From assembly GCA_031266995.1 (NCBI GenBank), contig JAIRZY010000078.1:1-33144 (forward strand): a stretch of DNA of 33,144 nt, in the 5' to 3' direction. This DNA comes from Tannerella sp. (GTDB taxonomy: Bacteria > Bacteroidota > Bacteroidia > Bacteroidales > Tannerellaceae). The notes under the pieces are model-generated. The model saw only the letters and a program-made list of their open reading frames with translations. It had not been told where the DNA came from and searched no databases. Position numbers and translations under genes: made by a program. Position 1 is the stretch's first letter. Every line of letters begins with the position of its first letter. This document shows positions 7,260-33,144 of the stretch, in pieces.

Positions 7260-7474
7260 CGCACGGGATTTTTTTCATTCCGTGCGGAACGCTTTTCATC
7301 CCGTGCGGGATTTTTTCCATCCCGTACGGAACGCTTTTCATCCCGTGCAGGATTTTTTTCATCCCGTGCGGAACACTTTTCATTCCGTGCAGATTTTTTT
7401 TCATCCCGTGCGGAACGCTTTTCATTCCGTGCAGGATTTTTTTCATCCCGCACGGAACGGATTTCATCCCGTTC
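7260..7474. repeat. Intergenic tandem array, exact 21-bp period (array A)
   Basis: Ten units at exactly 21-bp spacing: the core CAT(C/T)CCG begins at 7276, 7297, 7318, 7339, 7360, 7381, 7402, 7423, 7444 and 7465. Two flavours alternate, one with a T-run (GGATTTTTTTCAT) and one with GAACGCTTTTCAT, giving a 42-bp higher-order repeat. At the joints lie short palindromes such as ATCCCGTGCGGGAT and TTCCGTGCGGAA. The array fills the middle of a 585-bp gap (7142-7726) between tamL and the topoisomerase gene. The rest of that gap shows nothing recognisable apart from the promoter at 7682. Several ORFs cross the array on both strands only because 21 is a multiple of three. Confidence 0.9.
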
Positions 7475-14665: not shown

Positions 14666-14952
14666 GGAACAGGCTCCGGCTCTGAACGGATACGCTGTAT
14701 CCGGTCGGAATCGGTTCCGGTTCTGAAAAGATACGCTGTATCTGATCGGAATCGGTTCCGGTTCTGAAAAGATACGGCGTATCCGGTCGGAATCGACTCC
14801 GGTTCTGAAAAGATACGCTGTATCTGATCGGAATCGGCTCCGGTTCTGAAAAGTTACGACAGAACTGATCGGAATCGGCTCCGGTTCTGAAAAGTTCTGA
14901 CGGAACTGATCGGAATTGACTCCGGTTCTGAAAAGTTCTGACGGAACTGCCC
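14666..14952. repeat. Intergenic 41-bp tandem array with variable hairpins (array B)
   Basis: Seven consecutive 41-bp units start at 14666, 14707, 14748, 14789, 14830, 14871 and 14912. Each begins GGAATCGG(C/T)TCCGG, an imperfect palindrome, then TTCTGAAAAG, then a second hairpin. That hairpin is GATAC-GCT-GTATC in the early units and AGTTC-TGACG-GAACT in the last two. The outer base pair changes from A-T to G-C in both arms in unit 1, and unit 5 keeps a shorter AGTT/AACT stem. The array lies in a 710-bp gap (14564-15273) between convergent genes and contains no convincing ORF. Confidence 0.92.
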
Positions 14953-29768: not shown

Positions 29769-29789
29769 AGACCGTTCTCCGGTTTTCGT

Positions 29790-29984
29790 GCGACACGTTT
29801 CGCAAAACGCGGGAAACGTTTCGCAGAAAATGCGACACGTGTCGCAAAACACGGGAAACGTTTCGCAGAAAATGCGACACGTGTCGCAAAACGCGGGAAA
29901 CGTTTCGCAGAAAATGCGACACATGTCGCAAAACGCGGGAAACGTTTCGCAGAACGTGCGACGCATGTCGCAAAACGCGGGAAG
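29790..29984. repeat. Intergenic 42-bp palindrome array (array C)
   Basis: Units start at 29790, 29832, 29874, 29916 and 29958, the last one truncated. Each has two palindromes 21 bp apart centre to centre: GCGACACGTGTCGC (perfect in units 2 and 3; GCGACA/TGTCGC arms in unit 4) and GAAACGTTTC. The array fills the first half of a 434-bp gap (29724-30157). The second half is plain AT-rich sequence up to the next gene, with no promoter I can defend. ORFs through the array on both strands are artefacts of the period. Confidence 0.92.
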
Positions 29985-30157: not shown

Positions 30158-32491
30158 GTGAAAAGAATCTTCAGACAAATCATTCCGGTCATGGCGCTGC
30201 TGGCGGCCGGCGCGTGGCAGGCAGCGGCGCAGGGCATCGGGATCAGGGGCACGGTGAAGGACGCGGCGAGCGGGGCCGTCCTGGAGTTTGCGACCGTCGT
30301 ACTGCAAACGCCCGATTCGGCCTTCGTGGCGGGTGCGACGACGGGACGCGACGGCGGCTTTGCGCTCGAACGGATGGCGGCGGGCGACTACCGGCTGGCC
30401 GTCTCGAGCGTCGGGTACGAAACGCGCCGGATCGAACTCACGGGCCTGTCGCGCGACATGCGGCTGGACGACATACGGCTGACGGAGGCGGAGGTCTCGC
30501 TCGACGGCGTGACGGTGACGGCCTCGAACACGAGCAGCCGTATCGACCGCAAGATCGTCGTCCCCACCGAGCGGCACGTAAGTGCGTCGACGAACGGCAT
30601 CGACCTGCTGCAGCAGTTGATGCTTCCGCGCGTCGTCGTCAACCCGCTCTTCAGCGAAGTATCCGTTGCCGGCGGCGGCGAGCTGCAGCTTCGCATCAAC
30701 GGCGTCAAGGTCGAACGCGAAGACATCATCGCCCTGCGGCCGGCCGACATCATACGCATTGAGTTTCACGACAATCCCGGGCTGCGCTACGGGAATGCCG
30801 AAGTCGTGCTCGACTACATCGTGCACCGCCCCGAAACGGGTGGCGACTTCGGCGTGAACCTGAGCGACGGACTGATGGCCGCGTGGGGCAACAATTACCT
30901 GAACGGGAGGGTGAACCACCGCCGGTCGGAGTTTTCGCTCAACTACGGCATCAGCCACCGCGACTTCTATCAGATGTGGCGCGACAACGAGGAGACGTTC
31001 GTCCTCGCCGACGGCACGGTGCTGCACCGCCGCGAACGGGGCGAGCCGGGGCACGGCGAGATGTACTGGCAAAACCTGAACGGGAAATACAACTATCAGG
31101 ACGAACGGAAGATGTTCAACGCCACCTTCCGCCTCTACGCCGACCGCGAGCCGCACATGGACTATCACGGCATGCTCTACAACGTCGACGACCCGTCGGA
31201 CGCCGTCGACATGACCGACCGCACGGCCAGCCACGAGAGCCGCCCGGCGCTCGACCTCTACTATCAGCACAGCCTGCCGCGCGACCAGACGCTGGTCTTC
31301 AACGCCGTGGGCACGTATAACCGCACGGGCAGCACGCGCCTCTACCGTGAGAGCCGCGACGGCGCGACGCTGACCGACGTCGACAACCGCGTCGACGGCA
31401 ACAAGTATTCGTTCATCGGCGAAGGCATCTACGAAAAGAAGCTCGGCGAGCGCCGCCTGAGCGCCGGGATACGCCACTCGCAGTCGGCGTCGGACAACAC
31501 CTATGCCGGCCGGCAGCGCTTCGAGACGCGCATGGGGCAGATGGAAACGTTCCTCTACGGCGAATTCAAAGGCAGGATCAGGACGCTGGACTACACGCTC
31601 GGCGCCGGCGTCACCCGCTCGCGCTTCGAGCAGGAAGGCGAGGAGGGCTATCAGTATTACACCTTCAATCCGCGCATCGTGCTCTACCGCCCGCTGCCGG
31701 GCAATTCGTCCATACGCCTGCAGAGCGAGATCAGCAATGCCTCGCCCTCGCTCTCGAACCTGAGCGCCGTCGAGCAGGCCGTCGACTCGCTGCAGGTTCA
31801 GCGCGGCAATCCCGGCCTGCAGCCCTACCTGCGCTACCGCACGCAGCTCACCGGCGAATACCGCCGTGGCATCATCTACCTCAACCTGCTGGGAGTGCAC
31901 GAATATCATCCGCGCGCCATCATGGAAGAAAAATTCCACGGCGAGGACGGCAAGATCGTCCAGACGTGGAACAACCAGAAGCGCTGGCAGCGGCTCAGCA
32001 CCGGCCTCACTCTGCGCATCGGGCCGGTGCGCGACGTGCTCGAACTCTACCTCTCAAGCCAGCTCAACTACTACATCAGCGAAGGCCACAGCTACCTGCA
32101 CCGCTACACCAACCTCTATAACGACGCGGGCGTCAACCTCACCGTCAAGCGCTTCTTTGCCAACGCCGGCATGGAAACAAGCTGGGACCGCTTCCACGGC
32201 GAAACGCTCTATGGTGGCGAAAACATCCACTACGTCATGGCGGGCTACAAACACGGGACCCTGTCCGTCACGGCAGGCATGTTCAACCCCTTCGCCGACA
32301 ACTACCGGCAGCAGACCGAGAACCGCTCGCAGTATGCCTCCTACCGGAGAGTGAACTACATCAACGAATCTTCGCGCATGCTGCTCGTCCGCCTGAGCTA
32401 CAACTTCTCGTTCGGACGCAAGTTCGACTCTGCCCAGAAACGTCTCAACAATGCCGACGACGACTCGGGCGTAATGAGTGTCGGGAAATAA
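30158..32491 (+). CDS. TonB-dependent-receptor-like outer-membrane protein
   Basis: Outer-membrane protein of 777 residues. A signal peptide (MKRIFRQIIPVMALLAAGAW, cleavage near AAAQ) precedes a carboxypeptidase-regulatory-like beta-sandwich at about 28-105 (IRGTVKDAASGAVLEFATVVL, GYETRRIELTG). A plug-like segment (GIDLLQQLMLP, GELQLRINGVKVEREDI, RIEFHDNPGLRYG) leads to a long barrel ending in LVRLSYNFSFGRKFDSAQ. It fits the outer-membrane-barrel family with a regulatory N-terminus that is common in Bacteroidota. There is no SusD partner, so it is not a polysaccharide-utilisation pair here. It starts with GTG at 30158, which gives the best signal peptide. Substrate unknown. Confidence 0.86.
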   Translation: MKRIFRQIIPVMALLAAGAWQAAAQGIGIRGTVKDAASGAVLEFATVVLQTPDSAFVAGATTGRDGGFALERMAAGDYRLAVSSVGYETRRIELTGLSRDMRLDDIRLTEAEVSLDGVTVTASNTSSRIDRKIVVPTERHVSASTNGIDLLQQLMLPRVVVNPLFSEVSVAGGGELQLRINGVKVEREDIIALRPADIIRIEFHDNPGLRYGNAEVVLDYIVHRPETGGDFGVNLSDGLMAAWGNNYLNGRVNHRRSEFSLNYGISHRDFYQMWRDNEETFVLADGTVLHRRERGEPGHGEMYWQNLNGKYNYQDERKMFNATFRLYADREPHMDYHGMLYNVDDPSDAVDMTDRTASHESRPALDLYYQHSLPRDQTLVFNAVGTYNRTGSTRLYRESRDGATLTDVDNRVDGNKYSFIGEGIYEKKLGERRLSAGIRHSQSASDNTYAGRQRFETRMGQMETFLYGEFKGRIRTLDYTLGAGVTRSRFEQEGEEGYQYYTFNPRIVLYRPLPGNSSIRLQSEISNASPSLSNLSAVEQAVDSLQVQRGNPGLQPYLRYRTQLTGEYRRGIIYLNLLGVHEYHPRAIMEEKFHGEDGKIVQTWNNQKRWQRLSTGLTLRIGPVRDVLELYLSSQLNYYISEGHSYLHRYTNLYNDAGVNLTVKRFFANAGMETSWDRFHGETLYGGENIHYVMAGYKHGTLSVTAGMFNPFADNYRQQTENRSQYASYRRVNYINESSRMLLVRLSYNFSFGRKFDSAQKRLNNADDDSGVMSVGK

Positions 32492-32606
32492 TACGCTGCG
32501 AACCCTTATTTTTCGGAAGCGCCCTTAGTAGCCCGGGAAGCATCCTTCCCTCGCGTCCCATTATTATATCTGTACAATAATAAGGAGAATAAGGGTTCGT
32601 AGCGTA
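32492..32606. repeat. Long inverted repeat after the receptor gene
   Basis: TACGCTGCGAACCCTTATT (32492-32510) is mirrored by AATAAGGGTTCGTAGCGTA (32588-32606), 19 bp with a single G-U-type mismatch. The interior contains smaller hairpins (GGGAAGCATCCTTCCC, and ATTATT/AATAAT). It begins right at the receptor stop codon, so it would fold at the 3' end of that mRNA. No T-run follows, and it runs directly into array D. Confidence 0.8.
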
Positions 32607-32924
32607 GAGACGCGATGCCGCGAGCGGGAAGGTTACATATACTGTATGTAAGTCTGCCGCCGCGGGCGGGAAGGTTACATATACAGTATGCAAGTCCGCC
32701 GCCGCGAGCGAGAAGGTTACATATACAGTATGCAAGTCCGCCGCCGCGAGCGGGAAGGTTACATATACAGTATGCAAGTCTGCCGCCGCGAGCGGGAAGG
32801 TTACATATACAGTATGCAAGTCCGCCGCCGCGGGCGAGAAGGTTACATATACTGTATGCAAGTCTGCCGCCGCGAGCGGGAAGGTTGCCTATGCAATAGG
32901 CAAGTCCGCCGATCGCGTCTCTAC
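32604..32924. repeat. 42-bp hairpin array bounded by 13-bp inverted repeats (array D)
   Basis: Seven units start at 32617 (39 bp), 32656, 32698, 32740, 32782, 32824 and 32866 (42 bp each), with GCCGCCGCGAGCGGGAAGG followed by a hairpin. The hairpin is TTACATA/TATGTAA in unit 1 and TTGCCTA/TAGGCAA in unit 7, both perfect. Units 2-6 have TTACATA/TATGCAA, one mismatch on the plus strand and a G-U pair on the minus strand. The array is enclosed by GTAGAGACGCGAT (32604-32616) and its exact reverse complement (32912-32924). It lies between the receptor gene and the SRP RNA promoter. Confidence 0.92.
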
Positions 32925-33017
32925 AATCCCGTACCGGGTTGAACTGCTGACGCAGTTCTCTGCGTGTGGTGAAGATTCATAAAAGAACGTCAGTGCCGAA
33001 TTTTAGGCGCCGGAATC

Positions 33018-33049
33018 TTTGGCCGCATGAAAATAATGACTACCTTTGC
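33018..33049 (+). promoter_or_regulatory. Promoter of the SRP RNA gene
   Basis: TTTG at 33018-33021 and TACCTTTGC at 33041-33049 are separated by 19 bp, a textbook Bacteroidota promoter. Transcription would start at about 33053-33055. Confidence 0.85.
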
Positions 33050-33052
33050 CCC

Positions 33053-33144
33053 GGGTAAGTCCTATACGGCCAGCTCCCTCGGAATCCCCCAGGGCTTGAT
33101 CGCAGCAAGGGTACTTGGTTGTAGCGGCGCGATATAGTCAGCTT
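33053..33144 (+). ncRNA. ffs: Bacterial signal recognition particle RNA (4.5S-type), 3' end at window edge
   Basis: RNA of the signal recognition particle, which binds Ffh and targets membrane proteins to the translocon. Seen: the apical-domain signature CCCCCAGG...GCAGCAAGGGTA, and the distal strand GGTTGTAGCGGC, corresponding to GATGTAGCTGGC in E. coli 4.5S RNA. Closing helices pair CCTATA near the 5' end with TATAG near the 3' end, and AAG with CTT. It follows a perfect promoter. The tip reads GC-TTGATC-GC rather than CC-GGAA-GG, so the usual GGAA tetraloop is not present. The last bases and the terminator probably lie beyond the window. Confidence 0.85.

Follow-up and report, generated by a model that had tools for sequence, protein, structure and literature searches.

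Paired arm changes in a palindromic 42-bp minisatellite of a Tannerella genome

Array D and its surroundings

The DNA analysed here (the window, 33,144 nucleotides) is contig C175 of a 2.94-Mb draft genome of Tannerella sp., which is fragmented into 284 contigs and has a completeness of 92.77 and a contamination of 7.04. Near its right-hand end a minisatellite, array D, is placed between a gene for an outer-membrane protein, which ends at 32491, and the gene encoding the small SRP RNA (Table 1), whose match to RF04183 is the basis for placing this DNA in Bacteroidales. The array starts 126 bp past the upstream stop codon. A separate long inverted repeat lies immediately 3' of that stop codon, with its right arm adjoining the left of two half-palindromes that enclose D, and is partly included in a flank found at other copies of the same palindrome (locus L050). 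On the far side of D, the motif TTTG-N19-TACCTTTG at 33018-33048 overlaps the predicted start of the SRP RNA and has the form expected for a Bacteroidales promoter.

Table 1. Features at the array D locus (window coordinates)
Feature	Position	Strand	Details
Outer-membrane protein gene (upstream)	30158..32491	+	CarboxypepD_reg and OMP_b-brl_3 domains (Pfam)
Separate long inverted repeat	32492..32606	.	19-nt arms 32492-32510 / 32588-32606, 95% complementary
Left half-palindrome	32604..32616	+	GTAGAGACGCGAT; reads GTAGAGACGCGATGC when GC at 32617-32618 is included
Array D	32617..32911	.	seven 42-bp units, each with two dyads; TRF, 7.0 copies
Stem 1, unit 1	32633..32651	.	TTACATATACTGTATGTAA
Stems 1, units 2-6	32675..32861	.	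starts 32675, 32717, 32759, 32801, 32843; A-C at pair 3, T-G at pair 8 (plus strand)
Stem 1, unit 7	32885..32903	.	TTGCCTATGCAATAGGCAA
Right half-palindrome	32912..32924	-	ATCGCGTCTCTAC, exact reverse complement of the left half
Small SRP RNA gene, Bacteroidales (downstream)	33046..33144	+	Rfam RF04183, 108 bits; truncated by window end

Within each unit, stem 1 is built around TTRCMTA..TAKGYAA and stem 2 is GC-rich and degenerate. A preliminary description had reported an array closed by exact inverted 13-mers, and TRF and the coordinates of the two 13-mers confirm this. The paired arm changes reported between units 1 and 7 are also there: TTACATATACTGTATGTAA and TTGCCTATGCAATAGGCAA differ in both arms with pairing retained. 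The A-C mismatch described for the middle units was found where expected, at pair 3 of units 2-6, but the minus-strand advantage drawn from it was not, a T-G pair at the eighth position (plus strand) of units 1-6 having been overlooked. On either strand, units 2-6 therefore contain one mismatch of the G-U type and one of the A-C type, which leaves neither strand with an advantage.

Array D contains only four distinct stems and thus cannot by itself show above-chance covariation. In addition, its unit 7 is of the TTGCCTA subfamily, the predominant one in arrays C85 and C33 and in part of C237; as this subfamily is common elsewhere, D by itself records no independent double change. We also considered whether the array might be coding, 42 being divisible by 3 and long frames being open, but rejected this on the periods of sister arrays, which are 20, 23, 40, 41 and 44 bp. 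The open frames that run through arrays are taken as by-products.

Covariation, strand preference and inverted cores

BLAST searches with array D identified related 42-bp units at no fewer than 12 other loci of its own genome and a D-type array in one of 24 relatives, the congener G012. The orthologous loci of the relatives carry no array, with unrelated intergenic DNA present in the closest ones. Across the related arrays the frame GG-[stem 1]-GTC-[stem 2] is retained while stem 1 varies, its variants including TTACATA..TATGTAA, TTGCCTA..TAGGCAA, TTTCCAATGCCATTGGAAA, TTGTACA..TGTACAA and others.

Paired change is widely taken to prove a functional RNA stem. The arrays supply, within a single genome, a large number of closely related hairpins on which a mutational origin of paired change can be tested. 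Units were collected at a threshold of at least 6 of 8 pairs. In 67 distinct stems from related arrays, pairing was present in 94.2% of cells, compared with 77.1% (sd 1.1) after shuffling, and the covariation score was 0.445, compared with 0.146 (sd 0.015) after shuffling and no more than 0.153 in slid registers; units of the same array are closely related and the shuffle ignores ancestry, making slid registers the safer control. Both-sided change was seen at six of the eight pairs; the two outer ones (TT..AA), like the GG..GTC frame, are almost invariant. The hairpin-forming unit with genuine paired change that was first proposed from D is therefore upheld on many arrays, above both controls.

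Does this paired change reflect hairpins that act in RNA? Such hairpins would lie in a transcript made at the 3' end of the upstream gene, or in an antisense one, with stems selected as terminators, mRNA stabilisers or processing sites. The strong covariation across stems points this way, as does the folding of 32485-32930, which is far better than that of shuffled sequences on both strands (z about -7), and so does the short distance from the stop codon to D; RNA roles for REPs have also been proposed in the literature (PMC3733652). A selected one-strand transcript should, however, show G-U intermediates on that strand, and the mismatches among distinct stems number 26 G-T versus 24 A-C, a balance that gives neither strand preference. 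Hairpin energies tell the same story, the mean difference between the two strands of 81 stems being -0.02 kcal/mol (Wilcoxon p 0.89). Covariation with one-strand G-U tolerance, the mark of a structured RNA, was thus not found, and the earlier claim that the stem is better kept in a minus-strand RNA finds no support in wobble polarity or folding energy; a minus-strand RNA was rejected on these two grounds. Further points against an RNA role are that arrays are found between tandem, convergent and divergent genes alike and that the array is missing at orthologous loci. When the window was searched with Rfam at gathering thresholds, the SRP RNA was the only match, placing the array in no described RNA family. 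We consider an RNA function unlikely as the source of the pattern. The array may passively affect the 3' ends of upstream mRNA, but the observations can be explained without this.

An alternative is offered by template switching in inverted repeats, for which arm homogenisation combined with spacer inversion is the reported signature (PMC8604942, PMC8794818). This pattern is present here. Cores set in the near-invariant GG-[core]-GTC frame form six exact reverse-complement pairs, where column shuffles yield 2.1 on average (p 0.001) and randomised inner bases 0.17 (p 0.0005). They include D unit 1, as array C101 has the reverse complement of TTACATATACTGTATGTAA for one of its unit stems, and also D unit 7, where TTGCCTATGCAATAGGCAA is the reverse complement of stem TTGCCTATTGCATAGGCAA in arrays C237, C33 and C190. 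Same-phase loop inversions within single arrays were found in five arrays that differ in sequence, one of which belongs to another species, against one event in the reversal control; this count leaves aside 1-base loops, where inversion equals complement. The template-switching papers (PMC8794818, PMC8604942, PMC7202029) link arm homogenisation and spacer inversion to short inverted repeats of the same kind, treating such quasipalindrome sites individually, whereas in the present genome this footprint is repeated across tandem arrays.

Template switching yields paired change mutationally and the loop inversions are consistent with it, so that, contrary to the earlier claim, paired change alone does not imply selection. 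Although the numbers are small, a mutational, DNA-level origin is favoured on the strength of the balanced mismatch polarity and equal strand energies, both as expected of a DNA process, and of the inverted cores and loops. The matched arm changes are real, yet they look like what DNA copying inside palindromes would produce and not like proof that an RNA hairpin functions.

How might such copying proceed? During replication, a palindromic unit in single-stranded form would fold back and the nascent strand would switch template to the other arm, so that one arm is rewritten to complement the other exactly and an apparent compensatory change results, sometimes with inversion of the loop. Copy number would change, and variants spread, through slippage or through unequal exchange among units, and array fragments with adjoining pieces of palindrome may occasionally be copied into new intergenic sites. 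We infer template switching from the pattern that it leaves in the sequence, and exchange with oppositely oriented arrays elsewhere could also invert cores. The near-invariant TT..AA pairs and GG..GTC frame hint at some constraint beyond mutation.

Taken together, we place at slightly better than even the probability that D is a DNA-level palindromic minisatellite, centred in one copy of a GTAG...CTAC palindrome, with its arms homogenised by template switching and its copy number altered by slippage or recombination. The patchy distribution of the arrays (none at the orthologous loci, one relative in 24) counts for this explanation; the fragmented state of the draft genome counts against it.

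The closing 13-mers and the question of a mobile unit

The 13-mers that close D, GTAGAGACGCGAT and ATCGCGTCTCTAC, are the two halves of the 28-bp palindrome GTAGAGACGCGATGCATCGCGTCTCTAC. The preliminary description had read these ends as suggesting a unit that could be inserted whole and had itself named their occurrence away from arrays as evidence to the contrary. Such occurrences abound: genome-wide there are 68 forward and 71 reverse copies of GTAGAGACGCGAT (about 140 half-sites), mostly in uninterrupted palindromes, and 0 copies of the reversed pattern used as a control in the same genome. The left half is usually followed directly by GC and ATCGCGTCTCTAC, and at the loci read in this genome nearly all half pairs are separated by GC only. 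A few enclose 48-159 bp containing a second palindrome, and D is the sole pair at these loci to enclose an array. An empty-site comparison, made on paralogous palindromes within the same genome, showed the right flank of D to be common to nine other palindrome copies and the left flank to two, all of them uninterrupted, which also counts for the DNA-level explanation.

Much the same was seen further afield. When 84,980 species, each represented by one genome, were scanned for the pattern, the palindrome was found in more than 100 stretches, many from Bacteroidota, with others from Candidatus Parabeggiatoa, Fibrimonadales and elsewhere. The scan matches listed, together with a few additional loci, contain 123 uninterrupted copies and no copy that encloses a 42-bp array. 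The exact 15-mer palindrome half is absent from the congeners G010 and G014, both of which have array-rich stretches among those read. The array occupies one copy of a dispersed palindrome, and the palindrome does not define the array: because GTAGAGACGCGAT forms one half of a palindrome that is dispersed, mostly uninterrupted and absent in array-rich congeners, the 13-mers do not mark out an array transposon. The palindrome is itself amplified in tandem at L264 4190-4332, L073 2716-2808 and L050 1-507, with periods of 54, 31 and 228 bp, respectively, and long repeats with a 99-bp period, probably coding (ankyrin-like), lie near palindrome copies at L055, L058, L067 and L078.

The closest described elements to array D are BrickBuilt and MITE464/PgRS of Porphyromonas gingivalis, which are intergenic stem-loop minisatellites with 23- or 41-nt units and short inverted-repeat bounds, present at about 10-20 loci per genome and limited to strains or species (PMC4596501). 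D resembles them in being an intergenic stem-loop minisatellite of a Bacteroidales genome bounded by inverted repeats, and P. gingivalis minisatellites, with 22-, 23- and 41-bp units, fall in the same size class as the arrays described here. D differs in the sequence of its unit and ends and in lacking the leader and tail segments of BrickBuilt. BrickBuilt has ends that correspond to IS5-family ISPg elements and have not been reported in the absence of repeats; those of D are an independent dispersed palindrome. Unlike the P. gingivalis elements, many unrelated unit families coexist in the genome of D.

These parallels raise the possibility that D is a true MITE, in which a transposase moved the array together with its terminal inverted repeats, the route suggested for BrickBuilt. 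As in BrickBuilt, exact inverted ends enclose the minisatellite, and the left junction GAGACGCGATGCCGCG plus first unit is common to D and C237, whose outer flanks differ. C237 is the only other array to share a junction, however, and it lacks the right end; most D-type arrays are without such ends, and the ends themselves mostly occur without an array, so that the definition of a MITE fails for D. Further, the copies surveyed in other species enclose no 42-bp array among the matches listed, no target-site duplication is evident next to D and no Y1 transposase was found in the genome. A true MITE is thus highly improbable. Of the earlier suggestion that the bounded ends mark an insertable unit, what survives is the junction shared with C237, in which arm and array may have been copied together at least once, or an identical junction may have formed twice. 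Other related arrays also have sequence in common: C85 has the same first units as C33, and it shares with C190 a flank in which a copy of the palindrome lies.

The 28-bp palindrome also invites comparison with the GTAG REPs (PMC3733652). It is a short, dispersed, extragenic palindrome that falls in the 20-40 bp range and starts with GTAG, in both solitary and clustered copies, and CGTC-type repeats adjoin some arrays here. It differs from GTAG REPs tagged at one end in being symmetric (GTAG...CTAC) in most copies, with the tag degenerate at one end in some. A 2013 survey recorded GTAG repeats in Proteobacteria, Cyanobacteria, Chloroflexi and PVC, with Bacteroidetes not listed (PMC3733652). 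In contrast to GTAG REPs accompanied by a RAYT, the genome of D has no detectable RAYT: PF01797 (RAYT, Y1 transposase) gave no match there at E<=0.001, on which ground a RAYT/REP mobile unit was rejected for the array. PF01797 does match in 8 of 25 genomes of the genus, making past loss of a RAYT possible. A CGTC-type repeat, CGTCATTGCGAGCGAAGCGAAGC, lies at or near the right ends of C237 (L035 near 3829) and C55 (L038 near 2616). CRISPR arrays share with D short, regularly spaced repeats with dyads; unlike them, D has no unique spacers and its units are contiguous.

A possible genome-wide array class with 21/42-bp periods

Array D is one of many tandem arrays. In a 383-kb sample, comprising the window and 40 contigs picked by number while avoiding those listed for palindrome or array hits, we counted 35 arrays of at least 60 bp, an approximate density of 9.1 per 100 kb that extrapolates to about 250 arrays per genome. 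Leaving out a few coding-like periods, there is an apparent clustering in which most periods are 20-21, 40-42 or 60-63 bp, with a smaller group at 23 bp. The sampled arrays have for the most part unrelated sequences; of about 29 units with a short period, 17 are more strongly palindromic than their shuffled counterparts (p<=0.05). Most sampled arrays appear to be intergenic, beside genes in all orientations, and the ORFs that overlap many of them are probably by-products of stop-free repeats.

Relatives differ in this respect. Among the congener stretches read, those of G010 have a similar array density, those of G014 have some arrays and those of G003 none; the stretches read from two order-level relatives have 0 and 1.2 arrays per 100 kb. 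Palindromic 40-43-bp arrays are also found in Tannerellaceae contigs and in Candidatus Parabeggiatoa. In the latter, a distant bacterium in which the GTAG palindrome is present too, the arrays at L144, L160 and L181 have GTTACCCACC...GGTGGGCAAC-like arms and the same architecture.

Template switching alone is insufficient to explain why arrays of unrelated sequence cluster at 21/42-bp periods. One explanation would be that the dyads are sites for a dimeric DNA-binding or nucleoid protein, a spacing of 21 or 42 bp (2 or 4 helical turns) putting the sites on one face and the contact of one subunit with each half-site making the arms co-vary. The dominance of 20-21, 40-42 and 60-63 bp periods fits this proposal, as does conservation of the outer TT..AA of stem 1. 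The cores are wholly different between arrays, however, which would require a single protein of very loose specificity; in addition, stem 2 of D is degenerate and no candidate protein was identified. We regard such binding sites as distinctly unlikely to account for the arrays.

Broader in scope, and tentative, is the proposal that the arrays form a genome-wide class of intergenic palindromic minisatellites, unrelated in sequence but with unit lengths kept near 21 or 42 bp, equal to two or four turns of the helix. Such a class would amount to a DNA-structural system, patchy in gut Bacteroidales and perhaps in other bacteria, that relies on shared machinery for generating or binding the arrays, with D an instance that landed in a REP-like palindrome; we hold it to be possible, at well under even probability. 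In searches of the literature, no account of a palindromic minisatellite class with 21/42-bp periods was found. A common period over unrelated sequences, at this density of arrays, raises the testable question of what sets unit length, and the clustering near two and four helical turns is the most interesting lead to come from the analysis.

Smaller repeats are also dispersed in the genome, among them 7-8-bp GATTCAA/ATTCAAAG microsatellites (for example at L048 2715, L056 2553 and L058 161). The window itself contains three further arrays, at 7266-7472 (42/21 bp), 14672-14935 (41 bp) and 29789-29983 (42/21 bp), the units of which are unrelated in sequence and partly palindromic; the last of these has a relative at L082 2362-2551.
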